From Candidatus Omnitrophota bacterium (GTDB lineage Bacteria > Omnitrophota > Omnitrophia > Omnitrophales > Aquincolibacteriaceae): 43,911 nucleotides of DNA. The DNA lies in the NCBI GenBank assembly GCA_028713205.1, contig JAQTOZ010000003.1:1-43911 (forward strand), read 5' to 3'. Below are positions 19,701-43,911 of this stretch, piece by piece; the stretch's first letter is position 1; the number at the start of each line of letters is the position of its first letter. Made by a program: the position numbers and the translations under genes. A model generated the notes under the pieces. It was not told the origin of the DNA. It made no database searches and saw nothing but the letters and a program-made list of their open reading frames with translations.

Positions 19701-22700
19701 GTCCGTGGGTACCGTCCGATATGACGGATGTGGATAAATCGGCGCGAGCAGCGGCCTTGAAGCTATGGCAAGCCTGGGCGGATGAACGTGCCAAGGATCA
19801 GAGTTCGAATTTGTCGCTTCTGACGCTTGAAAAGGAACTTGAAGAGAATCAGCTCAAATTTGATCAGGCCCAGCGAGAATACGATTTGGCCGAAGAAACC
19901 GTCAAAGCTTACGAGGCCGTCAAACTCCGTCTGGAATCGAACCTGAAAGTGGATCAGCTCAAATTGATCAAGTATGAGGAAGAAATGAAGAAGTACAAGA
20001 TCGATATCGGCGATCCGGATGCGACGGACGGGCTGTTCAACGGATCCAAGGGAACGCTGAAGATCCGTCTCGAAAATATCGAGGCAGCCTTGGGCGATGT
20101 TCCGACGGAAGATGTTGACGGAGACGGCTCATTGGCACCTTCGGAAGACACCAATGAGGATGGAGATGTCGACGAGTCGGGCGAGGATTTGGACGGAGAC
20201 GGAGAGGTGGATTACGGCGAAGACTTGGACGGTGACGGGGAAATCGATCCGATATTCCCGAATGTTCCGCAGGTCCATGCGGGACAGGTTCCATTCCCGA
20301 GCCCGCCGTTGCCCGCCAATCCGACGACGGAATATCAAAAATGGCAAAAACTGCAGAATGATCTGAAGCGCAAGACGGATGATCTGGCGAATTATGAAGT
20401 CGGAAGCGCGGATTATATCGCCATCTCTCTGGAACGGGACAAGATCAGCAATAAGGTCAAGGCCCTCGAAGAATATATCGGTCAGCTGGAAGATGAGAAA
20501 AAGTCCCTGCAATTCGAAATCGAAAGCACCTTGCAGCGTTTTAAGAAGGCCAAGGAGAATAAGGAAAATACCCAACAGGAAATCGATGATATCAAGAAGC
20601 GTCTGGTGGAATCCGGAGGAACCGGATACAACGAATCCTGGAATGTCATTAAGAAGATCGACGATGCTAGGGCGATCATGGATGCCAAGCAAATAGAGAT
20701 GAACGGAACTCCGGGAACGACCGGAGGAGGATTGCGCGGTGTGATCGATGCCAAATACAAGGCGATCGAAAAGAAACAAAACTCCATCCTGCGATGCGAA
20801 GACGCCGCAATGGCTAACGGCAATCCGGTCGATTTGGTCTATGACAAACTCCATCTGGAAATGCGCAATTTCATGCGTTTGCAGCGCTACTCGGCGGAAA
20901 TTAAGACCTTCGGTAAACTGGTGAGCGCCGTTGCGGATTCTGTGACGGTGGTGCGCAAGTCCATCGACCGGAACTTTAAACGGATCACGGATGTTACTTC
21001 CGAGGTCCAGGCCTTGTCACAGGCTGCAGGCCGTTCGAAGCAACAGACCGAGATTTACCGAGATACCGGAGCCCAGAATGTCGAAGTGCTGAAGCGCATG
21101 TTTGCCCAGCTTTCATTCACGCAAGACAACGTCGAATATTTGATGGACAAGACGAAGGCCTTTACGGATACGGCCAATCTGTTGGCCGAACAAATGCTGG
21201 AAGTCGACGTGCTTAGCAGCGCTCCTTCCGCGCGGATTTATGTCAACCTCATCAACTATGCGGCGGATGAAGTCCGCGCCACCAACTCGTTGTTGCAGAC
21301 ATTGCTTGTTATCGAAAAAATGGGATTGAGTCCGGCACTCCTGCAACTGGCGGCAATCCGGTACGATCCCGCACAAGAAAGCTACATGCAGGCCCTGGAA
21401 CAACTCCGGCTGGCGCAGGAAGCTAAGGATAAGATTCTGGCGAAATTTGTGCAGAAGCGTGTGCAATTAATGACGGAGATGGCCAACCTCGACGAGGATG
21501 TCGAAGACAAGAAGATCCGGTGGGATAACTACTCGAATAAAGCGGAAGAACAACAAGCGGTCGTGGACAAACTCCAGGAAGAATTGGATGCGTTCATGGA
21601 AGACGAGGTTACGCCTCTGCGCGATGAGAAGAAGGATTTGGAGGACAAGATCCGCTCGTACATGGATGATGAGGAGACCGCTGAAGAGGGAGAGACTGCC
21701 GACGGGATTATCCCGCAACTGGATAGGGAATTGAAGGAAGCAAGGCGTGATTTTGAGCAGGCCTATGACATTTGGCTCGCGGACAAGACCAATGCGGCCA
21801 AGAAGACGGCGGTGGTGGATGCCGGCAATGCGCTCGCGGCCAAACAGCTCGAATTACATGATGCCATGGAACAGTACGATGATTACAAGAGGCAATTGGG
21901 AACGGTTAAGTCCGATCTGATCGACCTGGAATTGAAGCTGAATACGATGCAGGAGCGCTTGCAGGAAGAAAAAACGATTCTGACGCGCATCATCGATATT
22001 CGGGATGCCGCCGAGAAGGAATACGATGAAGCCGTGGAGGCTGCCGATATCGAACAGACCCCCGAGACGACATCTTGCACCGATGATACGGATACGGCTT
22101 GTATTCCCGGAATCCTGCCGCCGGTCCAATGGGATGAGAAATTCGAATTCAAGACCGAACGGGCAAAAATGATGGACAGCGGCGTCAAAATCATTCTTGA
22201 AAGTCATTTTGAAAATTATCCGTATGGATACAACGACCCCGATGTCGACGGTGACGGTATTTTGAATAATGATGATCCGGTGGATGATCGAGAGGAAATC
22301 AAGGTCAAAACCAAAGCCTTCATGCTTTGGGAAGAGTACGATTTGTTGAAAGAAGAGCTGAAGGCCGCAACCAATACCTGGAGACTGAAGCAAAAAGTCT
22401 GGGAACTCACGCGCGGGGAGTTGGCCAACGGCGGAATTATTGCGCATGTTGCGGAATTGGCGACCTTGACGGCAGAGGCGATCGACAAAAAGGCGGATGT
22501 CGAATTGATTCATGAGCAGGCGAACCGCCGTCTGCAAATTATCCGGGACTTGAAACAACGCTTTGACGCTATCGATGTGGTTTCAACGCCGGATACCGCG
22601 ACGGATGATGATGTCGACGGCGACGGAATCACCAATGATACGGACGATACGGATGACCGTCCGCGGACGGATGAAGCCATATTCCTGGCGAAGATCATCA

Positions 22701-25700
22701 AGAGTTACAAAGGGGAGCTTGTAAATTACGAACATGCGCTGACCGATCGCCAGAAAGACCTGGATTGGATCATCCAGCGAGCCTGGGATGACTATGAACA
22801 GATCCGCAAGGCGGAGTTGCAGAACGAAAACATCAAAACGGCCATTTACAAAGATAAGAGCTATACGCGCATTGCGCAGGAACCTTATCTGGACAATGTC
22901 ATGCTCATCGAAGGGGCAAAGTATATTGCTGAGGCGATGCGGGAATATTTCATATCCCTGGAAGAGGTCTTTGACTGGGATACGACCAATATCAAGGCCG
23001 CTCAATCGATTATCGAAGAGATTGAAAAGGAAATGACGCCGGAGCCTCCGGGGGAAATTATCATCCTGAAGGTCAAAGAGTACGATATTGCCAATGCTTG
23101 TTATCAGATTGTGAAAAACTCCTTCAGCCGGATCAAGGAAGAGCACGATCCGCATACGATGATTCTGTTCCTGGATTTGATCCGGGAATCGACCAAGAAG
23201 GCTGTTCGGACAGCGACGAAGGCCATCACTGATTTACAGGCGGAAATCGATGATCTGCATACCCGGATGACCGCTGAAAGGGATCCCGTCGCCATCTTCG
23301 TCTTATCGATGAAAATCGCCGAGCTGGAAGACAAAAAGAAAACGATGGAGGAAGTCAAGAAGATGACGGATCCGGCGGAAAAGTTGAATTATGGCAAGTT
23401 TGCGCTGGATTTGATCCTGTCGCGTATCTATCTCAATAAGACCACGATTTACCGGAATGTGGCCAATGAACTTTCAGGACTCCTGGGGATTATGGATGAA
23501 TCGACGGACATCGCCAAGATCGATGACGCAATCACGGACGCGGGTAAGAAAGCCAAAGAATACGCGGACAAGCTCGACAAGTTAACGGTCAAAATTCTCA
23601 AGGATATGGTGGCCTTGGGGGTTATCACCGTAACCGTGCCGGCCGCAGATATTAAGTGGAACACACCGTTCACGATTCCCGATCCTTCCGTGACGACGCT
23701 TGAGAGGATCAATCCGGCATTTATTCTCATCAAAGCCATGTGCTCGGAAGCTATTGCCAAAGCCGAAGAGGCGACCAAAGACAGCGAGCGCAGCAAGTTC
23801 TTGAAAGAACAATCGGGGCAATTCGATACGCATCGCAATGCCCGAACGTTCGCGGCACCGCAAATTCAGCAAACTTGGGAATTTGCCAATCATACGGGGT
23901 ATTTGTCGACCAAGACGCTTTACTTCCCGGATCGTATCGGTGGGACCGGAAGAAATATCCGCAGCATCGCGCGGTATCAACCCAAAATCAGCGGGGCCCG
24001 CGAACTGATCGATTGGACCTTCTACAATTATTACGATTTCGATTGGGAGGATTCGATTTTCGAAAATGAGCCGCCCGAATTGCAGCCTTTACCCGAAGAT
24101 ACGGAAGAAGAGGCCAAAGAGAAGGAAGAACAACTGCAGGAATATTACGATGAAGCGCGGCATGAGCAGATCATGAAGGAAGTCCATGAAGATCCGACGC
24201 TGAAGCACACCCTTACGATGGCTGCCCGCGGCGACAACAATCTCGAAATCGTGGGGCTTAATTTCTTTGCGATGAAGGGCGCGCGGAGCTATTTGCAGAC
24301 GCAGGAAGAAATTTCAACCAACTCGCCGGGCGGAGACAAGGAAGCATGGCACGATTATCTCGAAGTGTGGTTGCCGATCGGCACCGGCTATGTCGTGAAA
24401 CGGACCAATTACATGGTCAATGACAACGCGGAACGCATTAAATCGCAGCAGGTCAGGCTGGTGCAGGTTGAAACCAAGACAGGACCTGAAGTGCAGATTT
24501 TGATGTCAGAAGCGACCTATTCGGGCGATGCCGGGCATGAGAAGCCGGAATCGATCAGTCCCGAATATGTGAGCACCGTTATGCCGGAACGTAAAACCGA
24601 CCTGATCGAGTTTCCGCCGGCGGACGCGGAAACGAATGTCCATAGCGTCGAGAATATCTATTTCTACGATGCGGAAAGCACGGATGAGGAAGAATTCGAT
24701 AATTTGATTTTCGATCTCGATAAAGACACTTCCGCGGATTCGGACGATATTGACTATGTGGTTCAGGTAACGCGCTATGCGGATGGGTCAGGACAACTCG
24801 CCTACAATTTCTATAAAGGCGATGAAGGTGTGGAAAGGGTCCATTTCTCGGTCAAATTGCAGAGGACCGATAATTTTGGCAATGAGATCGATGAGACAAC
24901 GGTGACATATCCGGAAGATATCAACGATATGCCCGAAACGACACCGGAAGAAATCGCGGACAAAGAGGCCAAGAAAGAAGCCTATATCGAAAAGCTCAAA
25001 TGGAAGGCGCGACGCGACACGGCGATCGAGTCTATCACGATCTTTGAAAGAGACGCATTGGGCGCCATTCGCAAGACCATGACGATCGGTGTGGAGGGCC
25101 TGCTAAGCGAAGTGGTTCCGCTGCTGGGGCAGATCGAGGCGCTGGATAACGAGGTCAAGATCGGCGATGAGACCAAGACGATTTTTGCGCCGATCATCGA
25201 TACGGCAGAATATGTCGGTCCCAAAGACCTTGAGATGATCAGCGCGACGAAACATTACCGACGCGTCCTGCGTCGGTTTGAAGTGAAGGAAGAAGAGGAA
25301 GAGACGCCGCCAGAAACGCCTGAGACCGGTGAAGGTGAGGATACCGGTGATACGGGAGATACCGGAGACGAAATCCCGGTGGAAGAAGAGCCGACCTTTG
25401 ATTATGAATTGCTATCCGAACTGGAATCCTACACCTCCTATGAGCGGGACGGCGACGGAAGGTTGCTGACAACGACCACGATTCAATATCCCGCCTACGG
25501 CATCGGCGCCGCCCGTATCTCGAAATCTTATTATGAAGGTGATTTGGGACGTGAAACCATGGTGAAGATGGTCGATGCGGACGGCATTACGCATTATTAC
25601 GTGAATTATAAATATGAAGACGGCAAGAAAGTGACCGTCATGCACACCAATCCGAATTTGTTTAAGCGGCCGGAAGCGTTCACCGATGAAGAGGAAACAG

Positions 25701-28700
25701 AAACGACGGAAGAAACTCCTCCGGAAGATGCGGAAAAAACCAAATACGCGGCGCAGGATTTCACATCGATTGTGCAAAGCGATGAATTGACGCGTCTTAC
25801 CAGCAGTTCGCTCTATCAAGCGGACTCTTACCATACAACGGTGATTTCGGATGAGGACGGTTTGACGCTGAAGTCGACCGATCGTAACGGAAATGTCACC
25901 ACCTATGCCTATATGCGTGACGAAGACGGACATATTCTCTACGATCCGTTGCTCGGCAAACCGCTGGAGACATGGATCATGAACTCCAACGGGAATATCA
26001 CCATTCAGGGCAAAGAAGGTGAGGCACTCATGGAGTTTGATTTTGCGACGGAAGGTCCCGTGCCCGATCAAACGACCGATCCCGAGTTTTATGCCATGTA
26101 TGAACGGGACATGAATAAACTGGCGGAAATCTATGCCGCCTTCCAGGAACAATTCGACATAACCTTGAAGTTTGACGGAACTATTCCGGCGCCGGGATCG
26201 TATGGACCGGCGATTACACATTATTATTACCAGCGCTATATTGTTGAGCAGCATCGATTGACCGGTGATGAGGAAGAGGAAGCGCCGGAAGAGGAAACAC
26301 CGGAAGAAGAAACGCCCGAGGAAGATAGCGGCACGACCGGAGGTGAAATCACGGACGGCCCTGTGTTTGTCCTGGGCGAAGGGCTGAAGGATTCGTGGAT
26401 TATCCGCGACGAGTACGGGCGGCCGGTTGAGATGCGCATTGTGAAAACCTACACGAAGGTCCCGGAATTCGGCAAAACAGATGTGGGACTGACGTGCAAT
26501 AACATCCGTGAAACGATGACGTATAAGAAAGGCGAACTGAAATCTCAGGATGCCATAGAATATTTCAACCAGCAAACGGAGCTGGATACGGCAGGATACG
26601 GCGATTACCGGAATTATCTCCATATGCATTACCGTGCTGACGGCACGATGGAAATCAAACGGAATAACCGCGGGGAAGAAGAATATGATGCGAAGATCGG
26701 TGCCGATGTAGCCTTCCTATCGGACCGCGTGATGAGAATAGCCTTTGACGAAAGTACAGGCGCGATCGGTGCGCTCGGGATGGAACGGACGACGACTAAA
26801 TCTAAATCCGGACGCGGTATCTTTGCCACTGAGTCTTTCGGAAACTATGATTATCGTTCGAATATGCAGGAAGATTCGAAAGGGGTTTATATCCGTGTGA
26901 AAGTATTCAAGAAGGAGACGGATGGCAAAGCCTATGGCGGCGCATCGCTGAAATATCGGATTTATTATATCCAGCCTGTTGACGAGAACGATCCCGAAGG
27001 TGAAACGAAGTTGGTGCCGGTGCCAAAGGCCGACATGGATAAAGCTGAATTTGACTGGGATGCCGACAACGTGAAAATAGTCCTGGAAAGCCTTCAGGAA
27101 GACGGCATGATGGAAGAAAAGATCTTTATGGCGGATGACTCCTACGATGAAAATTATATGCAGCAACTCGAGAGTACGGTCTTCACCGAATATGTCTATA
27201 CGCCGGTGACCAAGCGTTCCAAGTATTATGTGGAATGGCGCGAGAGGCTGGATTATCTCCTCGAAGGCCGCGGCAGCTGGTCATGGGACAATGATAAATT
27301 GAAGTCCACCGCGGAAGAAGCTAATCCGTTGATGAAAGTTGAACGGGACACGTCCAAGACGGCCAAAATTCAGAATGATCTTAAAGACGATTTGGCCACG
27401 GATCCGATCGACGGCCTGAAATACTACGAAGATGTCGTGACAACGACAAGCACAACGGGCGGAACTTCGGCAGGCAGTGAGAGGAGTTTGTCACCGTTGC
27501 AGCAGCAGCTGCAAGATGTTAGTGACCGCTTCGATGAGCTAGAAACAGAAATGGACAAGTATCGAGCGACACGCGATACGGGGATCGATGCCGCGATTCA
27601 GGATCTCTTGACGGCGATACACGGACAAGAAGAAGCGGAAGACATCGGTGCCCAGATCATCGGTGGACGGTACTGGTTCTCGAGTGAAGCTCAATATGGC
27701 ACCAATCGCAAAGCGGTGTTGGATTGGTATGAAAGAAAAGCGGTTCTGAATAACAACAAGAGTGATACCGCCGGCGCAAGAGCGCAAGCCTATGCCGAAG
27801 GCTGGCGGGCACTTCTTATGGGATCGGCCCTTGCAGTAGCATGCATACCCGTCGGTGCTGGTGCGGCATCGGCTTACTTTGCGACGTGTGCCATGACCGC
27901 GAATTCCGTCGCCGACACAATGTACAACAATCCGGGTGGCGCACCAGGTGTAGCGGAGCAGGCTATCCATCTCAGGACGCCGGGCGGCCAGAATGCGAAC
28001 TTCAGCAAGGTCGTTGCGGGATGGGCCAATGAAGATGAAATGAATTACACCTACAATGGTTTGCCACAGAAATTTCAGCGGGTAAGCACGGAGGCTTTGA
28101 AGGATTTCATGGATTCGGCAACCCAAGTGGTGCTGAAGATGGACAATCCTCTGACAGGCGTGGACAGTGATGTGGTAGAGGAAGCGTTTGCGGTCGGCAC
28201 TGGCGGTGAAAGAGACGGTACACCGGCCGGAGCGCCTTCTCTTGTTTCCGGTGATGTCAACATTACCAAAACCGTGATGGAAAACCTCGGACTTGTCCAC
28301 GATCTTGAGCAATATGTGGCGGACCGTGTGCAGAAATACGGGAACGCTTTCGGCACTTATCTTTCGGTGGATGATTATCTGGCCAACTACATGGAAGGAG
28401 ACGGCACTGCGACAGGCAACGGAAGCAAGGTTGTGAGAAATCTACTCATCGAAACATTGCCGAAATTGATTCAAATGTATCAGGGAGATCCGGCGTCGTT
28501 GGAATTGATCATGGGAGATCCGAGCAATCCATCCAGTCAGGGGCTCTTTTATCTCAATTATGAGTTGATTACCACAAAGGGTAAATACACAAACGTCCAT
28601 TTCGATTCGACACAAGGGAAAATGGTCGGGAACCTGAACGGCGCATCCGCCGCAACGGCCGTCGATGTGAAACCGGAACAAGTGATACGAGCAAAATACG

Positions 28701-31700
28701 TTGCAAATCCCAGTACGGTCTTTGCTTCAAATACCGGCAATGGCGTTTTGTATGAAGCGATGAAGACCATTTTGGAAACACTTTCAAAATATGAGACCGA
28801 AAAGCAAAATGAATATGAAAAGATATTTAAAGAAGTTCAGAAAGGTCCCGCCGTTGCAACGGCAACGCCAGGCGCGGCGACAACGTATAGTGCCGGTTTT
28901 ATCACCGCTGATTCAGGTGCCGTCCAGGAAACCAAGGACGGCCAAAATGACTGGATCGAATCCGCGAAGAAGGAATATGAAACCTACATGAAAGAACAAA
29001 TCAACGAGGCCAAACTCCAGTACGGTTTGACGGTGCGGACGCATGATGTCCGCAATCAGAATATCATCGGTGGTTCACGGCAATTCATCCTGACGGAGGA
29101 AGAGCTAACGGAAAAGGAAGCCCCGGCAGAGAATATCAAGGCCTTCGTTCAAGCCCATTCCGGTGTTGCGCCGACGGCCGGGGGTGGAGCGGCAGATCCG
29201 TCAGCTCCGGAGCTTTACCTGAGGACCACGGACAAATTTACGGAATATCATGTGCCGGCCACGAGCGATCCGTTATTGGGTGATTTGGGCGAACACATGA
29301 TGGATCAAAACGAAAAGTTTAATTCGATCAACAACAAGGACTACTACATCGGTGCGCTGGACCGATACGATTACGAAGTCGAAATGCTTTTCCGCGATAC
29401 CATTGATGAAGTCAATACGTTGACGGATGAAACGGTCAACGGCATTCAACAGATTGCAGCGTTGTTTAATGTTGAGATGAGCAGCTATTTCACGGATGTG
29501 TCCGATGACAAAGTGGAACAAAGTGATTTTATGACCTTGTTCCAGAAAGTCATACGTCCTCTTTTTGAGGCCGGCCAGACGATTTATGACGGTGAGATGG
29601 ACCCGAATATCTCCGCGCGCGTAAACAAAATTGACGGTATGATCAAACAGGTGCTGGATTATTTTGAGCTCCTCTTGACCGATCCGCATACGGCAATCAA
29701 CGGCTATGACGACAAGGGTAACAAGACATCCTCGCCGCTGGAAGATATTCCGCAGATCCTGTCCCTGATCAATGACCTGAACGACGTATTTCTCAATGTC
29801 GATCCGGAACACATCAAAAAGCGTTGGAATGAAACGGCGATCGAAAAGATTGTCGGGGACCCCAATGGCTATGAAGCGGCGGAGGAAGAATTGCCGTCCG
29901 ATGAAGAGGAAGAGGACGGAGTGCCCGCATCAATACCGGTCGCACCGACCAGCGGGATTATGGACCTTTCGAATGCACCGAATTTCTTCACCGATGACGT
30001 GACGCATTTACTGGATTACGTGACACGCCAGATGTACCGCTACCTGGATATTGCGAAGAAAACGGCACAGAATTATGACCTGATCCGTAATCAGCAGAGT
30101 ATTCCGATAATGGTCGAGGAAATGCGCTATGACCTGGAAAGTATGGATTTACCGGCGGAGCTGATCCTCCTGCAGAAGAAAGATGCCGCGAAATTCGAGA
30201 AGTTGATGGAACTACGCAATTACGCGATTGCGGAATTGGCCAGCGATGAGGCGCTGTCAAGCCGTATCGCGGAAGCATCGGCCATCCGGTTCTTGCTGAA
30301 TGAGGCAAGGGCCCAGGAGAAACTGGATGATCAACTGCGCGCGGGTGTGGCCGGCAGTGAAGTGAATGTCGAGGAATTGCTGGCCCTGATTGACGAGAAA
30401 CTGGCCATTCCGCCGGTGACGGATGCCACGCTTGCGGCCAGTGCGGAATCCGTTAAGGCCGCACAGCTGGCAACCCTGCTAGGGAATGACGTCAACAACG
30501 ACGGTGCCTTGGCGCGTCAGATCAAACAGTTTTTCCTGAATCAATACCTGCCGGTCCGTAAGGCCATGGACCGGTACATCGCGCCGTCAGCCGGCCTGTC
30601 CGCCGAAGAAAACCTAATGCGATGGGACGACACCAATATTGCCGAAGACGAACTCCAGTACAAAGACAAGATCGTTTCGGCGAAAGAACAAAGCACCAGC
30701 GTTTTCGAAGACCAGGAAGAGGAATATTACCGGGATTATGCCAATTATGTCGGTACGGGCGGCAAAAAGCTTCAAGACCGCTTAGCGGAACTTGAAGTCA
30801 AAATTGCGCAGGCATTGCTGGATGCGGCGCGTCAACGCGTCATTGAAGGCAAGGACGGAGAGGAACGATTCCTGCGGACCGTCAGTGCTTTAGATCAATA
30901 CAAAACGGCCTATCGTGATTACCTGATTCGCTACATGTTGGGTGATTTCAGGGAAATCTGGGGTAATCCGTTTGAGCTTCCGTTCGATGCACCGATCGAT
31001 GCCTTGGCCTCCGGTGATTTCGGAATTCTTCATAATCTCACGCAGTATCTGACCAACGACCAACTCGTTGAAGTGCAAATTCCGGATCCGGACAATCCGG
31101 GCAAATATATCACCAAGACCGTCAACAAGAAAGGCGAGGAATCCGAGCTTGTATTGGGCAAACTCGGGACCTATATCGTGAACGAGTATGACAAGTGGTT
31201 CGATCAGATGGTCAATGCCTATAAGGGAGCTATCTTCCATTACGAAGTTGTCGGCGATTTGCCGGGACTCGAGACGGAAGACAACCGGGAAGTGGCGGCC
31301 GAAAAGTATATCGAGAAAATTTTTAATACGCATGTGGGCGAGCTTGACTTTGAGGATGCCAATGGCGAAATCATCGGGAACAAGGATGATACGTTGATTC
31401 AGGCGGCCGAAGATCCAGATGCGCTCGAGGCGGAATATCCCGACGGTACGGGCATCGGCATGCTCAAGAAAAAGTATGATGAATACGAGGCCCAGGCATG
31501 GACGGTCTATGAGAACCGGATGGAGGATGCCCTCACCAAATACAAGGCGGCTGTGGATAGCCTTCTCGTGGACGCCAGCGGGATTAGCAAGAAGATACGC
31601 AATTTGCGTCAGATGGACGGTTACATTACGGTGGGACAAGAGTTGGGCCGTGCCGTTCTGAAAGAGGCCTTCCGGATCATGCGTTCCCTGGCCGCGACCA

Positions 31701-34700
31701 TTCAGTCCATGATTCTTTATTACAATAGTATTAAGCCCGGAACGGCCTGGTTTACCGATCAGCAGCGGCAAAACGGTGTTGATTGGTGGTATGAGCAGGG
31801 GACAAAGGCCTTGATGCAGGTTTATAACGGCCTATTTTACGGCACGTTCCAGGAGAATTACATCATTCCGGATGAAGGACTACGTGCCTGGTGGAATCTG
31901 TACACCACCGGCATTATGGCCGGCGGCATCGATGTCGATCCCGAACTCGCCTTCCAGCACTTCTATGAAATATTCGATGCCTATGGACATGGTCCGGTCG
32001 GTGCAACAGATACTGCGGAGAACGCCCGGAAGGCCATCGAGGCCGAGGTCGGATTGGCGATTCTTGATAAGATGGTCGGAAACGCCATGGAAACCGAGGA
32101 AACCGAAGAAGAAAAAGAATTGGAATATATGCTGGCCGAAATTACGGGTCAAAATCAGGGATGCATCAAGTATTTCGAGTCCGAGAGTGATTTCTCAACG
32201 CGCGTAAGCTCCAGACTCAAAGCCGGAAGCGGTTCCAATCTGGATGCGGCTTCAGCCTCATTACAGGCTGCGGGTGGGCTCGGCGGAGGCGGTATCGATA
32301 CGGCCACGAAACTGAAAGTGCTGGAGGAAGGTTATGCGGCTCAGATCCGGCAATTGACGGACGATTACGAACGTAAGATTATTACCGAATCTGAATTCCA
32401 GACAAAGGTTTTACAACTGGATATGGAATTCCAGGAGCAAAAGAAAGAATTGTCACAAGGGCTCTTGCCGACAACCAACACCGGACTTCTGGAAGGCCTC
32501 TACACGCTCTTTAACGAGGGGATTATTACCCAGACGGAATTTTATAAGTACGGCATCGACCCGACGTATAAAGACAATGCTCAGAAAATCATTGCCGAGA
32601 TCCGCGAAAATTCCGTTATCGGGGAAAATCGCTTTAATCGCGTTATCGATCATACCGAAGACGGTGTGCCCGTGTACAAGACTCTCAACGGTAGCTTTGC
32701 CAAGAAGATGGAAGAGATCAGGAGAAAATATGTTCTCCACTCAGGGGCGGAATCCACCGCCAGTGCCGAGTCGATGATCGATTCGGACATTGTGGCCCTC
32801 ATGACGTTAAAGACGGACGTGGGTGATGGCACGATTGTGAATGCCTACAATGCGGGTGTCGCGAGTGCGGTCGATTATCTTAGCCTTACGATGCTGCAAC
32901 CGACGAGTCCAGGAAGTCCGGGCAACGCCTATATTGAAAGGGTTTTTGGCAGCATTGACAGCATTAATGCGCCTATGGAACGTTATGAGGCAAAGGACCC
33001 GACCGAAACGGGTAACCTGGCTGCCGGTAACTTAAGTCCGTCCGTTGATTTATCCATTCGTGCCTATAAGGACCGTATCGCTTGTCTTGCTTCCGGTTGC
33101 AACAGTTTTGCCGGATCGGTAGGTGTTGAAACCTCAGGCTATGGGACTAATCTGGCGTTAGATGCCGATTTTGTCATTGCCACCGATGATCAGGGAAATA
33201 TCACCAAGATGGGGCTCTATGATCTCTATGATCGTCTAAAACCGATGATCAATCAGTTTAAGAATACGACAAGCTTTACAAAGGGACTTAATGTACTTCA
33301 GAACGAAAAACAGACGAATGTCAGCAAAAAGGTTGACGAATATCACAAGTCGTTGCTCTCAGAATTCCATCTCAACGGCGGCAGTGAAGACCGCTTCTAT
33401 CAGGATGCGATTAATCTCGCCGGGTTAGAGACGCAATTCTACGAAGATACTTTGACGTCCATCCGGGATTTCTACGAGTACGGGTATAGCTCGGAAGCCA
33501 TCAGCTACAAGAGCCTCTTGAGCAAAGAATACCTTAGCGGACGCAGCAATTTTGAAAATGTCGGTAACAACATGGTCTACGATTTCTATGAGTTCGATCC
33601 GGATGCCTTTACCTCATCGACGCTGACGGACATCGCGAACGTGCTTAGCGATGAATCCCTGAAGCGTCTCGGCGCATTCTCGTCCCGCGACGGCAATCTG
33701 GCTTCACGGACCATGTCCTATATCACCAATCGCTATTACAACGAAAAAGTATCCGAAATCGGAGAGGTTGAACAACGCATCAGCGAACATTTGTTCATCG
33801 GGCAGTTCGGACAAATTGTCGAAGGCGGAAGCCATGACTCCAAAACCAGCGCTGCGATCGAAGAGGCGCAGCGCAAGGAGACGCAACAGCGCTATCGTGA
33901 GGCCATCAAAATCGTTCTCGGCCAAACGGCGGCCACCATGATGTCGGCCCAAGAGGCCATTCAGCTCTCGGCCCTGACCGGTCAGCAGGTTGGTATCGAA
34001 ACCGGCACCGGTGACGGAACGCTGTATACCATTTTCAATGACGGTGTCAAAGAGTACGAATTCTTTAAGGGCTTCTCGGGCGGTTCGGATTGGGCGCGTT
34101 ATTATGAGCCGGACGGAAGCTACAAGCAAGTGACCGAAACCAAACGCATCGTCAAGCAACGCCGGCAGAGCGGTGAGTTGGCGGCTATGGATACCATCGA
34201 ACAAAATGTCGAGACGACGCAGAATTTCACCTCTTATGGCGCGATGGTTGCAAGCGTAACTCGCGTTCAGACGAATTATCTCGATCTTGATATTAACGAT
34301 GCCATTGACCGCCAGGTCAAGAGTTGGACTCAGACCGATGTCTTGGGATCAACCATGGTTATGAAAGACACCACCATTACGACCGATCAAAGCGGCAGGA
34401 AACATCGCCGCAATGTCAGCACCCTTGAGAACCGTGACAATTTCGGGCGCATGATCAACGGACGTACAACCATGCAAGATTCTGAAGATCTTGCGTTTAC
34501 GAATAATCGTGCACGGGTAGTCAAAGAGGATGGCATAGCGACAGTTACTATGGAAATAACCGGTCAAAAATCATGGAAGGTGATTAAGACCAACGGATTC
34601 ATCGAATATGGGAAAAACGGCGTCGTGATGAAGAGCAAAATGCATACCGAGATCTATGACATGTACGGCCGTATTGTCATGAAATCGGATGAAAAGAAAG

Positions 34701-37700
34701 AGACCAAGATGGTCGGCGGAGAATTGGTAACATTTACAAGTGTCACGGGAGAAAGTTATGAGTACATGGCTGCTGATTGCAAAAATGTCGATGAATGCGG
34801 AATTATTATCGAAGAGAAGGACGAGGAAGGAAGACCCGTAACGGACCCGAAAACGGGTAATGGGAAAATCAAAAAACGCGTTGCGAAAATCGTGCACACC
34901 TTCTCATCGGATTCGCAGATGGCGTATAACGCAGACGGAACATTCCGTTGGGGCGAGTCCGCCGAGACCTCAACATCTTCCGAGGATGATAAGTTCACGA
35001 AACGTGTTATCCGTACGGCGGAACTGAATTATCGAGGTCAAAAGACGCGTGAAGTTACTACCGAAGAAGAAACCGGCAAAGAAATTGCAGCGACGGAGTA
35101 TGGCTATTATTACGCCGGCGGAGAGCTCGAACATTCGCGCGCGCATACGATTAACGAAGAAGGCTGGGCCAGGAAACATCATCGGGTTGTCGCTTCGGAT
35201 AAGGATGGCGGAATCATCAGCGATTATGAATACCGGAGTTTCACCGCCGCCGGGTGGACGGCACTGATCGCTGCGGCCATCGTTTTGATAGTGTGTATGA
35301 TTTTTGTCGCACCGCTTTTTTGGATTGCGGCTGGCTTCCTTCTGATCGTCATTTCGATGGCCATCGATAATTTTGCCTGGAGTGCCTCCACCTATTATAC
35401 GACTCACAATGGCGAGAATACGCGTGTCTCAAGAGAATCGACCGGCGCCTTCGGATCATCCATTGCTACACGTCAGGAGGATGGCACATGGCGCGTGGAA
35501 TACAGCCTCAGCTTTTTGGGTATAAGGTCGAATTGGCTATTTTCTCCGCAGTTCTTGTTATACGCAAATCCTTATTTAATGTTAACGTTAGCTTTCCTTA
35601 TTTATCTCGATTGGGATTTAGGACTTGGTTGGAATTTAGAAGACAAGTTAAGTGGATGGTTGACTGATGGAGGGTTGGGATGGTTCCAGGACGGAATTAG
35701 TTATGCTACTTATGAAGCTGCAAGTGCGGCTTCGGATAGTTATGCGCACCGCGATGTGATCATCGGAGAACTTTTCGCTATCATCGTCGAAATTGTATTG
35801 GGTATTAATAGCTTTATGAAATGGGCAACAGGGGGTGAGGGCGGATGGTGGGACAGAAATGTCGAAGATGCTTGCATCGAAATCAAGATTGGCTGCTTGG
35901 TCTTGTGGGATGAATTTGTTCAGTGGGCCAGTGACAATTGGAATACGCCTGCCGGTGCGACCGCAATTGTTGTTGCGGCAGTAGTTGCGGTTGCCGCAAT
36001 TGTCATCAGTGCGGTGATATTTAAATATGTGCCCAGCAGTTGGTTTATATCAAGCTTAGGTGGAAGGTTGGCATTTTCAGCTACGGTGATGATGGCGGTT
36101 GGAGGTGTGACACTGGCCATCGGTCTTGCAACAGCTTTGTGGATGAATGTGGCTTACGGTAGATCGATCACCATCGGAGACTTATTAATTGTTTGGTGCG
36201 TTGCCATCGGGGCCGCATTGATTGCGGGAGGGGTAACATTCTTTGTCGCTTCAAGAGCGATAGCTCCCGCCTTGCCGGAAGTAGCTGCAGGCACTGCAAC
36301 GAGAGAAAGCGCGCTTGCATCAGGCAAAGCCTTTGTAACAAATGTGCTGGGATTTAAACCGATGGCAAAAGCCTTGCTGCAAAATTCAGTGGCGATTACA
36401 GCCGGAGGCATGGTTGTAACAGGTGCGCTGCTGGTAGGCGGCGGTATTGCGATGGCGATAGCTCAGGGTACGGGCGATCGAGAATTGGCGGTAAACATCT
36501 TTTTGGGAACAATGGCGGCAACTACTTATGTCGTAGGAACATTGGCTCCGTTCATCTTGGCAGGCTTATTATTCGCCGGGGTGCTATGGGCTGCTGCCTT
36601 ATGCCCGTTTTTGTTCCTGCCGTTGCTGTTTGTCGCCGCAGCCTTTGCGAGCAACATACCTCAGGTTACGATCAAGGATTTAAAAGATCGACAAACGCTT
36701 GGCAAAGGGGTTAACCTTGCGAACTCGTATATGTCCAGCGGTCATTGGTCATCGTATCTCGTCATGGCATTGATTGCTGTTGTGTTGTTTGCGGTTGGCA
36801 TGAAAATTTTCACAGCGAGCGGGGCTCAAGTCTTAAAGGGCGGACAGGTTTTGGCCGCAAGTAATTTTGGCAAGGCGATCGGCATCTTTTGCATGGTAGG
36901 AGGCGGAATTTGGCTGGTAGGAACGGCATTGGCCTGGACACGAGGCGTTTCGGTAACGGATATGACCGGCCTTTCCGCGTTCGATATTTTGAGCATTGTG
37001 GCTTTGGGCGTGATCGTAATATCGATGTCCTACAATCCTTCCGGACTTAGTGCCAGACAGGTCATGGATTTTCAGCAAATGAGGTTATCGCAAGGAATTC
37101 CGCAATATTACATTGGCAATATCATGCGAGTTTCAGCAGGCAGCGGCAAAGGATTAGGAACGCTTCTGTTACAACGTTGGCATTTGATGACCGGGATGCT
37201 CGGGTTGAGCCAAGGTGCAGGCGCAAGCGGTTTGATGGCTTCGATGCTCGGTCGAATTGGATTTATGACGGCATGGTCTTCAATTATTGCGCAAGCCTTC
37301 GGCTTGGCGTTCTTTATTCTGGCGTCTCAATTCATGTTGTCGATGGTTATGGCATCTCTGCAAGTATTGATCAATTCGGTATGGATGGGCTTCTTTGAGT
37401 CTTATGATAAACCGATCGAAACGAATTTAGCCAAGACGCTTAGCGACTTGTCTTACTCGTGGCGTAGAAACGGACTTTGGGGGCAGACCAAAGAAGGTGA
37501 AGCCGGGCACTTGGGCGGATTTTCAAATTGGTTATCTTCATTGCTCGGAACTTTTGCCGCGGCACCCCTGGGGACTTTGGTGCATTTTGCCGGTTTCTCG
37601 ATCGACGAAAATACCGGTGAATTTCTGGGCCGCGGGTCGAGCTTTGACGCAGTCAAGGGTTTGATGAGCGCACTCCCTATGTTTGTCTTCTTGTTGCCGG

Positions 37701-40700
37701 TGATTGCACCCTACGTCGCTCGATTGCCCATCGTCGGTTCATTGTGCAGTTGGCTCAATAAAGTCGTGGAAGCGGGAACTAAGGATGCGATGGGCGCTTT
37801 GCTGCAGCGTACAGGGCCGAGCCTCTTATCGGCATTCCTTACGGCCGGTCAAATGGCATTTAAAGGATGGGTCGATTTTGCTCTCATTATCCCATTGATG
37901 GAAAATCTTGCGACGAAACCCGCCTATGAACTTCTGTGTTATTCAGCAGGATTGAATATCGTTCAAAGAAATGCAACGGCATCATGGCCATCAACGGTAG
38001 CACTCGGTGTTACTGCGGCACCGATCGGCGGTTTGCGGACGGGCGAAACGGCGAGAGAAGTCTCTTCGACCCGGCGCGCGGTTGAATCTGCCAATGTGGA
38101 AAGACCGTTTGACGCAAGCAAAGTCAGGCCTAGTTTGAGGCAATATACGAATCCTGTTACCGAGCAAGCATTTCGCATGGGTGAATTAAATCCGCTGGAA
38201 TCATCGACTATCGATACGTTTACCGAGATGCCTGTGGTGTCTCAGATAGATGCTATGGCTGAGGTCCAACCGGTGGTAGAAGCAGCGACCGAAGCAAAAC
38301 CAGCGGTTCCCGAAGTGACTAAGCGACCGCCTCCTGTGCGGCCCGCACAAATGGGCGCCAATGCCCGTTATGCGGAGTATCAAATCCAAATGGGAGAATA
38401 CAATCCGGAAGGATGCCGCTATCGGGACATTTCTGATGCAGAATTGGAATGGCTGGAATATTTATGGACGAGTGTTAATGCCCCTGGCGAGGCCGGCCTT
38501 GCCGCAATGCAGGATTATGCCTATTCTCAATACAGCGTCGTAGGCAATTCCGTAGACGATTCAAAGAGACTGAGACCCGTTCGAGGTACGGAACTTCCCG
38601 CAATCGAAAGATTTAGCCGGTTGATGGAAGCAACAGCGGTCGAGAAAGTGCGAGCGGCCTCAAATCTACCGACGGAGTCAGAAAAGATAGTTCGCGAGGA
38701 TAGTGCCAAGGCCGAGGTCGTGAGCCAGCAATTACAGGCCTCTCGACCCAAGGAAGTACAGAAACTGTCTTTGTGGGATGCCATCCGGATCAGTTTCGGC
38801 GGCGCCGATGTCAAACCCGCCGAAGTTTCGTTGTTAGACGCAAATTTCAAAATTCCTGCCGAAATGGAAAAAACGATGAAAGATGCGGAGGAGGGTTTCG
38901 CTCTGAGTGCGGCGAAGTTGGCGGATATCGGCTTGAGGACGATGGACTCTGAAGGAAATTGGAGGACAACACCGCTAGAAGGTGCCGATCGTGCCGTGTT
39001 TATCGAACGCTATGTCAAAATTCAAATGGCGCGTTGCGGCGATTTGAATGCCGCCCGTGAAGTTGCGCAGGGTGATCTTCTGGGACAGAGAAGCGGACCC
39101 GGAGGCACTTGGGCAAAAGGGCGCGTATCGGAGTTTTTGAACGTTGTATTGCCAAGTCAGAGAGGTAGCCGGTCCGGTGAAATCGTGGTGCGGGTTACGA
39201 CTTTAGAAGAAATTCTGGGCCAGAAAACACTTCCTGCGGTAGGTGATTTGGTAGACGTTGTTTACCTTAAAGAATTTGAAGTTAGGGATCAAGCCGGCAA
39301 GGTCATCGGGACTGAGTTGCGTGAAGTCGGTGGAGGAAAAATTCGAGTGACCGATCTGGATGTGGAAGCCATGCAGGGTTCAGTCAAGAAGACGAGAGAA
39401 CAACTGCAGACACTGATTGCGATGCTCTACAGCCGTGATATGGTTTTACAGGTAGGAACCGGTGTCGGTAAAGACTCGGCCATTTTGCCGTGCTTTGCCA
39501 ATATGATGAAAAGCCGGGGAATGCAGTCGGTGCTTGTCTATCCCAACAAGCTCTTGGCGAAGCAAGGTCTCTTGGGTATTGCGGCGACCCAGGAGGCATT
39601 GCGCGGTAAGAAAACCGTGGCGGAAGCAATCGATGTCGGCATGAAAGTATTCGAAGATGCGCTTGCGACGTCCAACCTCAGCGCTTCGGAGAAATATGCG
39701 GCAAGAGAAAGTCATCGCGCCATTTTGGAATCCAGCATTATGGAAAATCTACAAGTGGCTGTCTTTGATTCGGATGTCTTTTTCAACGAATCGGGTAATC
39801 ATCCGGCGGAGCGGGTTGCCGAGATGCGTGAAGCGGTTGAACATGCCGATGTTTTGGTTATGACCATGTCGGATATGTTGACCCCTCTTAGCACATTGCG
39901 TGCCTGGAGTTTGAATCGGGGCCATGCTAATGCCGAAACGATGATCAATCTGGCGGATCGCGTGCTGTCACGCATGTCGAGATCCGCCATCCTGATTAAT
40001 GAAGTTGACGCCATGAGTTGGGTCGTTCCGTTGACGCGCGGAAAAGGCGGTGAGGCCTTTAACCTCGTGAATGTTATGGAAACGTTGGCGGAGCATGGGG
40101 GCGGCGTGGAAGCGGTCCGCGAGCAACAGAGTTTTATGGACTATTTGCTCGAAAATGGCTTTGCCACTGTTTCGGGGAACCGGCTACAGCTTACAACGAG
40201 TGGACGGGATCATGTATGGGGGAATGACGCACAGCCCTTGGATAGCCGGGGATTTGACCGTTTCGTTCAGGAAGGATATGCCACATGGCTTAAGGCCAAG
40301 GGGAACTTAGCGGAAATTCCTAAGCTTACCGACAATCAAATGAAAACGATTCATTATACCGCTCAGGCCCTTGTCGCCACGGAACGTCAATTGAATATCG
40401 ATCCCAATACGGGGCAATTACACCCGGTTGATCCGTCGGGAACGGTTTCTGTTGAACAGAGTTTTCAAGGGGCAAGACGCGCATTGGCCTATAACGTCGT
40501 CGGCCTTGCCAGAGGATTAGGCCGTGCACTCGATTATCGGTCACCGATCAGCTTCGCTCAGGAAGGTAAGACGTGGCGTGTTTCTGAAGCCGATATTACC
40601 AAGGTGGCCGAAAGTGTGACGGTGCAGCGCAGTGCGGTTACCGTGACGATGGAAGCAACCATACGTGATATACGCATGAGACAAAGGCAAGCGAATGTCG

Positions 40701-43700
40701 GCGGATTTATGCTTGGACTTTCCGGTGATGCAATGAGTTTTGCTTTTGAGGCTGCGCTGATCTTTAACATGGGTGTTCTGGGTGTCGACCCGGCAGGTTT
40801 TAAAGGAAAAGGATTCAGATTTTGGAGTATGGATCCGACGAATGCTGCATTTGCATTGGCGAATAGGTTGAATAAAGTAGGAGCGGCATTTCAGAGCCTT
40901 GGTATTGAGGATGCAGTCGTCCGGGGATGTCAAGATCTCGAAACGGTATTTAGCGGAGCCGGCGGTACTAGGGGCATTACGGCATTCAAACAAGGCGGAG
41001 TCGTCGCATCGCTTGCGTCGAGATTGAGAAGCGGAGGGAACGCGACTATTCAAATGGTTGGCGAGATACGCGATAGCGATACGATTGCGGCAACTTTAAA
41101 ACATCTAGAGTTAGCCGCTGCTCAAGGAGGAGAATTATTCGGACAGGGTGATACGGCGATCATTATCTTTAACGCCGCCAACAACCGCGTAGAACTTTAT
41201 GGAAGTGTTCGCGAGGCCCAAGATGCCCTTAGCGGTAAAGCCGATGCAAAACCGCTGGCCATCGCGGATGACGCAATGGTTTTTACGATTGGCGGTAAAC
41301 AGTTTGAACTTTCAAAACTATTAGCTTCGAAAGGAACCGATGCATTAAAAGCGGCATCAGTTCAGACTCGTAACATTCAGCGAATTGTTGCCTTTCAAAC
41401 AGTCTCGGCTACGCGCGGAACCGACCTGAACTGGACCAAGTCGATAGAAAATGCCGCATCGAGCGGCAACGTCCATCAATATCTTATTGCAAGCCGCAAT
41501 GTGACGTTCTCGGAAATTAATCAGGCCCTCGGACGTGACCGCGGTGTGGATAGCATGGGATTAAGGGCGTCAACACTGTCTCTTACGATTGCTTTTGTGG
41601 GCGAAGGCTGCCGTTCGATGGTAAGACGATGGCAACATAACGCCGGTTTTGGAACGAATAAATTTCAGCGATTTGTTGAAGGGATGCAGGAACATCTGCT
41701 GGCGAATTTGAAGAATAGCGTTCAGCAAAGCGTTTTAAGCCGGACGACGCAGGCCTTGCAAAACGCAAACCGAAATTTCTTGGAAGAGGTCCAGACGCGG
41801 GTTGAGACCGAGCTGACCCAACTCACAGGAAACGATGCTGCAACGGTTGGGCAAAGAGCCAAACTGGTCAAGCTCCATGCTGAAGTTACGGAAGAACTTA
41901 AAAAACTCGATGACCAGCAGGAAACCGACAGCCTGCCGACGGAGCAAAGCCAGGACTCCGTGGCCAAACTTCAGGAGATGATTGCTATTACATTTGGCCG
42001 GGAATTGGAAACGGTCAAGAAATTGAGAGATGCCGGCATTGAAGATGTTGCGGGACGGAAAACGCAAAGCTGGGATGTCGTTCCGGAGCTGCAATTTGTA
42101 GACGGAAAGTTGGTTTCTCAAGCGCGTGTGCTTGAAAGGGTCGACGGTGCTTTTGTGCCTACCGATTTTACAAGCGCATCCACCATTCAAGATGTTGTTA
42201 ATATCTTGCATGTCAGGCTCGGTGAGTTGATGAACGGAGAAGTTTTTGCGCCATTCCGGGAAGGGTTGAAATTCGCAAATACGCGCGATGTCCTGCCCGA
42301 ACAAACAACGGCTTCGCAACTGACTGTGTTCTTGCGCTCGATGCAGCAGGCACAGAGTGCGACGCAAACCGCAACCGCCGCAAGAGTGTCCGAAACAACA
42401 CCCGAAGGGGTTGTCGCGAAACAGGGGTTGCAAGTCACAAGGTTCAGCGTCGGCAATCAGGCAGTTTTTATGGAGCGGTTGCAAACGCTGTGGGCGATGC
42501 CGAACAATCAGGGGCAGGGACAGGTTGCGAGGATTGTGCAAGGATTTACGGTTCTGCAGCAACTTGGTGTGGACTTTACGAAATTCAGCACGTCGCAAAT
42601 GAAATCGTTCATGAGCGGCTTCGCCAATATGACGAGCGAGGAAGCTATTATTCGCGCTGCCGAAGGTTTGAATACTTTGAGTTTATTGACCGATGGTAGT
42701 TTTAACCTGAGAGATTCCAGTGCTGTAGGGAACCAGACACAACTCGATCGTATTCTGTTGCCGGGTAGTACGGGTGCGGACGCAAGGAAAGCTCGCATGG
42801 CCTTGATGGCGGCATTGCCGCTGCTTCCGGATTGGATGCAGATCCAAGCTATTGATACGATTCGATCGATGACCGATGCCGATTTTGCCGACATCTTGCC
42901 GCAGTTAGGGTGCAACTTCCAATTCCAGTCACAAGGCGTACAAGCGGCACTGATCGGAAGGCTATTGCAGTTTGTGATTGTCGATGATCAGAATAACCCG
43001 AGTCCCATTATTGCTGCGATACGGGCGTCTAATCCGCAGTTTGCGGATGTCTTGGTCCAGGTTATGGGAAATATGATCAATCCGGGCCAAGTTACTCCAC
43101 TAACGCCGGATCAATTTAAAGCTTTTGCTCAATTATTCAATCCCGATATGCTTCAAATGTTGCCCGAGAATTTGAGATTGGGCTTTTTGCTGATGGCGCC
43201 GGGGATCATCAAATGGCAGGAAGGCGGCATTGCGGTTCAACTGCCTACGGCTTTCGGAATGACTTCTTATACTTTTAAAGATGCCGAAGCTGCGGCGCTT
43301 GCCGGAAATCTCGCGCGGCTGATCAACAACCTGAATAATCCGTCGGTCGTTGGTTTTAATCTGGCGGCCTTGTTGGGGCAGGATCCGAAGAAGGCCTTGC
43401 CTTCTTTGGCTCTGGATATCCTGAATCTGGTTCGCAATATGCTTCCGATTCTGGCGCAAATCACGGACGGTGCGGGTAATGTTGTGGCGATTAATGTCGG
43501 TAATCTCCTTGGCTTTATGAATCACGTGGATTTCAATGCGCTGGCGGCCCAAAATCCCGTTGCCGCCAATGCCGCGCTCGTCAATTTGCAAAGTCTGCTG
43601 GTGAACTTGCGCAATCTCCAGATCACGAAAGTGCCGGCAGTTGGTTTCGAACAGATCGGGTCCTTGATTCTGAATATTCTGCAAGCGGTTGTCAATCAGG

Positions 43701-43911
43701 TCCAATTCGACGTGGATAACCCAAACAATTCAGCCAACCGGAGCATGCCGGTTGCGATCGACATGTTGCGGAATCTGCGGAATCTTTTGGATGCGGTGCG
43801 GGCTGCGGGTATATCCTTCGATCCGGCTCAGCTGCCCACTTTGGCCGCGATCGCCAATTTGCCCAACCTTCAAAACTCACCGGAGAATCTGGGCGGTTTT
43901 ATCATCGAGCT
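2..43911 (+). CDS. Giant modular protein, partial at both ends (>=14,636 aa), frame 2
   Basis: Frame 2 translation from base 2 (SIQSYDEQARAKKDEIEAVLTKNGSYLTRTQELLSLTEF...) to base 43909 (...LPNLQNSPENLGGFIIE) is protein-like throughout with no stop met. All + strand ORFs in the supplied track fall in frames 0 or 1 mod 3 and none in frame 2, consistent with frame 2 never reaching a stop. Confidence 0.95.
1780..2250 (+). other. JAMM/JAB (MPN)-like metalloprotease-type domain embedded in the giant protein
   Basis: Translation ...EVGILVLYGQIVLFTISDESDLKLLKAVSELAQNASLIAHTHPSTVTGPSELDITKAGGSTEYVLTQDGVFSYNH. H-T-H-x7-S-x-x-D at 2075-2116 matches the JAMM signature HxH-x7-SxxD, followed by a predicted beta-strand region. 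Confidence 0.6.
2365..2430 (+). other. Gly/Pro-rich interdomain linker
   Basis: Translation DDGGGAGAPVPPGGGVVAPAD. Confidence 0.6.
3767..4090 (+). other. Dockerin-like / EF-hand Ca-binding repeats (about four loops)
   Basis: Translation ADLNGDNKIDNTDVDLLINSISKMIDINQDGKTDLLDKETWQKM...ADITGDGEVNWRDRDMFKTDLRYFVDVNRDGTVDGADVAIVESYL; DxNxDxxxxxxD loops followed by short helices as in type I dockerins. Confidence 0.8.
4200..9000 (+). other. Long helical, coiled-coil-like array with aromatic heptads
   Basis: Translation such as LKTKLDAYHTQVTAYNGTIAAYQNAKNAYWGNANAANKTALDNARDAMNLAYAGVRDTWGDFNAAI and ARTDYEIARADYESNSNALSLKYEEARNAYTEYW; Tyr/Trp/Phe recur at 7-residue spacing. Confidence 0.65.
8957..8992 (+). 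other. Canonical EF-hand loop
   Basis: DTNDDHIVSLDE matches D-x-[ND]-x-D-x-I-x-S-x-x-E. Confidence 0.7.
9298..9357 (+). other. Acidic Gly/Glu/Asp linker
   Basis: Translation SSGGEEGEGGDTGDVVPEVKD. Confidence 0.55.
9850..10345 (+). other. Beta-rich module
   Basis: Translation VDFVLREKAKPPAEGETAPEEKDDFVLGVPDVVTTSFENI...KVMLYFDVTDDSNPDRTFEVRGDPTGIFLFYEIDQ...TVDLEWDDGSGTDTMMTVTYEISAGA; alternating hydrophobic strand pattern. Confidence 0.5.
12890..13560 (+). other. Beta-rich module A
   Basis: Translation SGSVIVEPPSAV...KNWKIESGKTYVWEIKIPDDDKYDVLIRTVMLTP...IKSFWVNSIQRIRIDEKIYEITTGPGGIELKT. Confidence 0.5.
14740..15830 (+). other. Beta-rich module B with an EF-like loop
   Basis: Translation ...GSPIKSYWESGLQYVSLDGTLYEVTLITGSLVLTKK... 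and VMDGGNNNGYIDAAEAFD (15545-15589). Confidence 0.5.
16457..16743 (+). other. Trp-flanked Asp-rich (EF-hand/TSP3-like) Ca-binding-type repeats, copy 1
   Basis: Translation EWNDLDHDGIIKPKNWVDKNMNGKVDGGYW...EWDDADKDNSLTHKDA...YSDANGNKQIDVAEAV. Confidence 0.7.
18356..18650 (+). other. Trp-flanked Asp-rich (EF-hand/TSP3-like) Ca-binding-type repeats, copy 2
   Basis: Translation EWTDADEDGIVKPLDWVDGGILGMVDTPELYDRNGDGTVSDPEEWVDLDNDGVNDPAEWTDLNNNGVVDETEYDTSEWTDQTVNGAVDHEL; about 15-residue period. Confidence 0.75.
19625..19670 (+). other. EF-hand/TSP3-like Asp loop
   Basis: Translation EDINGNGVFDPDIDIE. Confidence 0.5.
20111..20257 (+). repeat. Tandem DxDGDG Ca-binding-like loops
   Basis: Translation DVDGDGSLAPSEDTNEDGDVDESGEDLDGDGEVDYGEDLDGDGEIDPIF; ED(L/V)DGDG repeats visible in the DNA as gaggatttggacggagacggagag / gaagacttggacggtgacggggaa. 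Confidence 0.75.
22235..22297 (+). other. TSP3-like Asp loop
   Basis: Translation DPDVDGDGILNNDDPVDDRE. Confidence 0.65.
22604..22674 (+). other. TSP3-like Asp loop
   Basis: Translation DDDVDGDGITNDTDDTDDRPRTD, similar to the loop at 22235. Confidence 0.65.
25289..25396 (+). repeat. Acidic Pro/Glu/Thr/Gly linker with short tandem repeat
   Basis: Translation EEEEETPPETPETGEGEDTGDTGDTGDEIPVEEEP; DNA near-repeats gataccggt/gatacggga/gataccgga. Confidence 0.7.
26267..26349 (+). repeat. Acidic PEEET tandem linker
   Basis: Translation DEEEEAPEEETPEEETPEEDSGTTGGE. Confidence 0.7.
27809..27910 (+). other. Isolated hydrophobic segment (possible TM helix or hairpin)
   Basis: Translation ALLMGSALAVACIPVGAGAASAYFATCAMTA, flanked by polar sequence. 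Confidence 0.4.
29870..29960 (+). other. Acidic/Pro linker
   Basis: Translation YEAAEEELPSDEEEEDGVPASIPVAPTSG. Confidence 0.5.
33980..35245 (+). other. Beta-rich YD/Rhs-like region 2, directly upstream of the TM block
   Basis: Translation with RDNFGRMINGRTTMQD, YDMYGRIVMKSDEKKETK, NYRGQKTREVTTEEETGKEIAATEYGYYYAGGELEHSRAHTINEEGWARKHHRV. Confidence 0.55.
35255..37950 (+). other. Polytopic transmembrane region (multiple hydrophobic helices)
   Basis: Translation WTALIAAAIVLIVCMIFVAPLFWIAAGFLLIVISMAI; ATAIVVAAVVAVAAIVISAVIF; SATVMMAVGGVTLAIGLATALWM; LLIVWCVAIGAALIAGGVTFFVA; VAITAGGMVVTGALLVGGGIAMAI; TYVVGTLAPFILAGLLFAGVLWAAALCPFLFLPLLFVAAAFA; SYLVMALIAVVLFAVGMKIF; FGLAFFILASQFMLSMVMASLQVLI; LPMFVFLLPVIAPYVARL. 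Confidence 0.9.
39380..41790 (+). other. Divergent SecA-like ATPase module (NBD1, PPXD and NBD2 equivalents)
   Basis: Ordered motif correspondence to SecA by eye: LQVGTGVGKDSAILPCFANMMKSRGMQSVLVYPNKLLAKQG (MRTGEGKT...VHVVTVNDYLA); ADVLVMTMSDMLTPL (ITYGTNNEFGFDYL); ILINEVDAMSW (ALVDEVDSILID); IHYTAQALVATERQLNIDPNTGQLHPVDPSGTVSVEQSFQGARRAL ([50 protein letters not shown]); FMLGLSGDAMSFAFEAALIFNMGVLGVDP ([30 protein letters not shown]); IVAFQTVSATRGTDLNW (VTIATNMAGRGTDIVLG); YLIASRNVTFSEINQALGRDRGVDSMGLRASTLSL ([35 protein letters not shown]). Confidence 0.8.
41690..42000 (+). other. Coiled-coil-like segment after the SecA-like module (possible helical scaffold equivalent)
   Basis: Translation LANLKNSVQQSVLSRTTQALQNANRNFLEEVQTRVETELTQLTGNDAATVGQRAKLVKLHAEVTEELKKLDDQQE. 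Confidence 0.5.
43150..43911 (+). repeat. Degenerate Leu/Asn-rich helical repeats, continuing past the window
   Basis: Recurring units: LARLINNLNNPSVVGFNLAALLGQD; LNLVRNMLPILAQITDGAGNVVAINVGNLLGF; LQSLLVNLRNLQITKVPAVGFEQIGSLILNIL; IDMLRNLRNLLDAVRAAGISFDPAQLPTLAAI. Confidence 0.55.

Follow-up and report, generated by a model that had tools for sequence, protein, structure and literature searches.

Most full-length giant genes reportedly encode divergent secA DEAD helicase domains. If this holds, the kind of protein described here is known, and what is new is the extreme divergence of its motor, an altered active site and an order-wide tally. Giant-SecA fusions have probably been described already, though among the papers covered by our search none dealt with giant proteins and SecA at once. 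The giants of West-Roberts et al. reportedly share with the present locus a giant protein with many transmembrane segments, a divergent SecA DEAD-type domain and membership of the same phylum, whereas our copy lies beyond the reach of Pfam SecA models and its Mg2+-ligand residues are altered. The 2023 preprint of that group is concerned with giant genes (bioRxiv 10.1101/2023.11.21.568195). The 39,678-aa protein of 'Ca. Velamenicoccus archaeovorus' is likewise a very long single frame with transmembrane helices and few annotated domains, and dockerin domains were reported in another Omnitrophota giant (PMC10066038); unlike the present locus, these giants come with no mention of SecA in that paper. 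The issue is by what means proteins of 10,000-85,000 residues leave bacterial cells, and whether motors for this purpose are built into them.

The window, meaning the whole stretch of DNA that was analysed (43,911 nucleotides), is one of the 295 contigs that make up a 3.1-Mb genome. It holds a giant ORF of 14,636 codons (2..43909, frame 2; all features given below are on the forward strand) that is stop-free and open at both contig ends, a typical example of the giant ORFs reported from Omnitrophota (PMC10066038). The best explanation, which we hold to be probable as a whole, is that its product is a very large surface protein of an Omnitrophota bacterium which carries, fused in cis behind a polytopic membrane segment, an SF2 ATPase core of SecA descent that has diverged extremely. 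The region at 29372..34420 is homologous to residues 9791-11473 of the nzgw285 giant (sequence comparison, 27% identity, E 8e-138) and is presumably extracellular. A transmembrane cluster of about 13 hydrophobic segments follows at 35264..37717 (residues 11755-12572; Kyte-Doolittle, 19-residue windows) and matched no Pfam family and no SecY. The idea that such a cluster is a SecY was rejected, PF00344 being unmatched in 8 of the 8 tested. A Pro-rich linker then leads to the motor-like domain. The post-motor region (41552..43909) is at first helix-rich, according to a low-confidence model, and then Leu/Asn/Pro-rich to the contig end; Pfam found neither the wing/scaffold (PF07516) nor the two-helix finger in the window. 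We also noted three dockerin type I (calcium-binding) stretches (window 3698-3829 and nearby, around residue 1233; E 1.8e-13); a weak RHS repeat lies near 25.85 kb.

The SecA-like SF2 motor core (39383..41551, residues ~13128-13850) was delimited by motif blocks, chain scores, a Pfam DEAD match and a homologue. The Q motif and Walker A lie together in TREQLQTLIAMLYSRDMVLQVGTGVGKDSA (39392..39481, residues 13131-13160; motif block). Walker A reads GTGVGKD, with Asp in place of the Thr/Ser after the catalytic Lys. The strand ADVLVMTMSDML (39845..39880), common to the window and its relative and recovered by alignment, chain and block, is a probable NBD1 strand. Walker B is the DEVD-like AILINEVD (39986..40009; ILINEVDAM, residues 13330-13338), which retains the Glu and has Asn in place of the Mg2+-binding Asp. 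An insert of about 200 aa (40019..40609) sits between motifs II and III, where SecA has its preprotein cross-linking domain (PPXD). Motif III, GLSGDA (40715..40732, residue 13572), was placed by the chain and resembles the GxSGT form found in some giant-embedded SecA-like copies. The second half of the core contains the motif IV-like GNATIQMVGEIRDSDTIAATLK (41036..41101, residues 13679-13700), motif V ATRGTD (41408..41425, residues 13803-13808) and motif VI NQALGRDRGVD (41519..41551; NQALGR at 13840-13845), to be compared with NQLRGRxGRQG of SecA. Of the SecA NBD2 signatures, ATRGTD is thus present and QLRGRxGRQG appears in partial form (NQALGRDRG).

When PSSM blocks were ranked over the ~14,600 positions of the protein, V came first, I second and IV fourth, and none of the remaining blocks, including Ia, Ib, PPXD and GRR, rose above background alone. 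Motifs I, IV and V are accordingly supported individually; for II, III and VI the support comes from their collinear order and from conservation. The SF2 order Q, I, II, III, IV, V, VI is present in the domain. A sequence-only reading of this DNA had listed SecA landmarks in the correct order, preprotein-crosslinking domain included; Q/I, II, III, IV, V and VI stand, but at the place of the PPXD there is an insert of SecA-like size in which the PPXD block reaches no significant rank in the whole protein. The observation is thus confirmed in part, and so is the interpretation built on it supported in part. The domain has in common with SecA (PF07517, PF01043, PF21090, PF07516) the order and spacing class of Q/I and II-VI, the insert between II and III, and the RGTD and NQxxGR signatures. 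It differs from SecA in the Asp after the P-loop Lys, the Asn found where DEVD has its first Asp, the lack of a profile match, the undetected wing/scaffold and SEC-C, and its embedding in a giant behind a transmembrane cluster.

Among the 384 Omnitrophota genomes searched, just two others carry the domain, both of the window's phylum. They are giants on JAHFFE010000004.1 and JAHFHF010000006.1 (MAGs nzgw285 and nzgw332), and both contigs are single open frames (45,037 and 26,028 codons; 135 and 78 kb). A viral-contig scan gave no relative. The identity between window and relative is about 28-30% over the domain, and homology with the giant of the 135-kb contig covers the motor domain and ~1,680 residues further upstream. 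Conserved in both versions are Q and GT..GK in the Walker A block, E-V-D in Walker B, SG in motif III, and the later stretches ATRGTD and QALGRDRG. The relative has an intact active site with canonical Walker A and B (GTAGGKT; DEVD, within LLIDEVD), whereas the window is altered in both (GTGVGKD, NEVD).

Clear SecA cores occur in other giants of the order. We found PF07517 matches beyond standalone SecA in ~15 of 47 genomes, in frames of 1,008-39,033 codons (SecA_DEAD, E 1e-12 to 1e-56). Eight long frames were scanned: SecA_DEAD was found in all eight, P-loop_SecA in seven and SecA_PP_bind in six, and the wing/scaffold in one, as a partial, sub-threshold match. In most giant-embedded copies scanned the wing/scaffold and SEC-C went undetected. 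GK[ST] is retained in 14/14 copies with the Walker A region aligned and the Walker B Glu in 15/15. Many of the SecA-core frames have transmembrane clusters near the core, and in several giants further clusters come after it. The window's genome has a separate standalone SecA, so the window domain is not the housekeeping copy. Two other PF07517 matches were discarded: the second one in the window's own genome (contig C274) is RecG, not SecA, and that in G245 is a false positive on a small frame. These sister giants, through their comparable context, are the strongest reason for the SecA assignment, and the claim that a SecA-type motor is fused into a giant polypeptide draws its support mainly from them. 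With conserved ATPase residues in many long-frame cores, the survey offers concrete domains to express and assay. Since the window copy is invisible to Pfam SecA models, profile searches must undercount such cores.

Overall, we suggest that the core would consist of two RecA-like folds, with an insert taking the place of the PPXD. The core is most likely cytosolic, because a SecA-type ATPase is useful where ATP is, and the transmembrane cluster would tether it to the membrane on that side. In the family as a whole the motor would spend ATP on moving polypeptide at the inner membrane or across it, and its most likely task would be to help in exporting the very long extracellular stretches between the transmembrane clusters of giants. 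The nearest known need is the action of SecA on large periplasmic loops of membrane proteins, as reported in PMC9192764. We regard active polypeptide translocation in the family as quite possible without calling it probable. The sequence-only reading had suggested that the protein might carry part of its own export machinery. Most of the chain, with the N-terminal ~11,700 residues, precedes the motor in synthesis, and its export presumably precedes the motor too, which speaks against such a role; a C-terminal motor would be of no help to the earlier residues of its own chain unless export is post-translational. Its targets might be later segments of the giant, neighbouring giants, or the action might be mechanical. 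A repurposed SecA-derived motor of this last kind would translocate no preprotein and would do mechanical work on the giant itself, for instance by pulling, retracting or gating the transmembrane cluster or the surface structure when the cell attaches or preys. We consider this unlikely; it fits a motor made after most of the giant, the close association of transmembrane clusters with the core, and the failure to detect wing/scaffold and SEC-C in most giant copies even though PPXD and both RecA folds were detected. However, PPXD is the preprotein clamp of SecA, and most of the clearer copies have retained it, which argues against a purely mechanical role.

The window copy is a separate matter. 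The residues at both of its Mg2+-ligand positions have changed (GKD, NEVD), which makes ATPase activity of its own doubtful; judged by these residues the copy may be weakened or inactive, and we lean against its being active. A rival view holds that it is a catalytically dead scaffold, a pseudo-ATPase retained for binding. The substitutions of GK[ST] and DEVD speak for it, the former being conserved in every other giant copy aligned and both being canonical in the closest relative (GKT, DEVD). But the catalytic Glu and the P-loop Lys are still present in the window, as are ATRGTD and the Arg of motif VI, and the window's motifs V and VI are near-identical in the relative. We find a dead scaffold distinctly improbable. 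A more speculative extension of the SecA-derived core, to which we would give little weight, is that a fast-evolving lineage without recognisable wing/scaffold, together with the adjacent transmembrane cluster, would form a self-contained membrane device serving the giant, with the active site rewired in the window's lineage: the acidic Mg2+ ligand would have left Walker B (D to N) and taken up a place in Walker A (T to D).

Direct similarity searches do not decide the SecA assignment. Searches of Pfam, NCBIfam and PDB sequences matched no SecA family to the window, and SecA_DEAD (PF07517) in particular left the domain unmatched. In the core Pfam gave DEAD alone, at Walker A (E 3.7e-4, below the Pfam cut-off). 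Because this sub-cut-off match is the sole one in the core, the searches came close to an absence of SecA and SF2 similarity, the very outcome which the sequence-only reading had named as contrary to its claim. HMMs built from 21 Omnitrophota SecAs, whether or not the giant-embedded copies were added, gave the window no better score than its reverse; with filters off, the HMM of SecA plus giants did not detect it either. HHalign of the two-row profile to SecA gave 7-14% probability, with the three best local matches collinear with SecA. AlphaFold models (903 aa, and the NBD1 part of the relative) were of low confidence (mean pLDDT 37 and 47), and Foldseek found no match with the low-confidence NBD1 model of the relative.

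In the chain test, collinear chains of ungapped segments were scored against the SecA profile. The two-row alignment reached z 7.3 for SecA and 8.7 for SecA plus giants; among the controls, the reversed alignment gave ~1 and a RecG profile 2.4, and values of 3.1-4.9 were obtained for two unrelated pairs of homologous regions taken from the same proteins. As a single sequence the window domain scored z 5.1-5.7 and the best of 15 other window segments 3.7. RecG, a non-SecA SF2 enzyme, attained 3.2-5.4 against SecA profiles in this single-sequence test, which, since RecG reaches 5.4, favours SF2 more than SecA membership. A simple local-alignment z-test did not settle the matter, as one control segment reached 3.5 in it. 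We conclude that the domain is very likely of SF2 motor descent and likely of SecA descent. An SF2 motor of another lineage, of the nucleic-acid helicase type, would agree with a generic DEAD family as sole database match in the core and with the scores of RecG against SecA profiles. Such an origin is nevertheless decidedly improbable in view of the preference of the two-row chain for SecA over RecG, the ~200-aa insert at the PPXD position and the true SecA cores of the sister giants. Chance resemblance within a 14.6-kaa protein is disfavoured as extremely improbable: the motifs were first matched by eye and several blocks (Ia, Ib, PPXD, GRR) do not exceed background, but two homologues that are 28% identical retain these motifs in a common order, and the controls score below the window domain.

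The two contigs that carry relatives of the domain (G059:C9 and G032:C32) encode giants that are 100% identical over the 5,695 aa compared. At least one of them is probably misbinned, because an identical giant in MAGs of different families is involved. The 45,037-aa frame (L008) closes in near-perfect tandem repeats of ~34 aa (FSAIAKVPAADLPNLAGLINFNLAGVDIAEIPAL), and these may explain why the assembly stops at the end of that contig. The window's genome has a second giant frame (C225:4162-19998, 5,462 aa), in which no SecA-like domain was detectable in the part read. This frame has a C-terminal region (4162-4701, L097; ending GMAA) that it shares with several other giants (G018:C47, G009:C12, G015:C59 and G020:C42; loci L059-L078), where the region closes the protein with A-x-A-A or similar (ATAA, AVAA, AQAA, AAAA). 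A profile of the region matched 12 of 47 genomes of the order; most matches close long frames, and others lie in short frames of 36-128 aa. The shared region may serve as a C-terminal signal for sorting or processing, or it may be what is left of broken copies.
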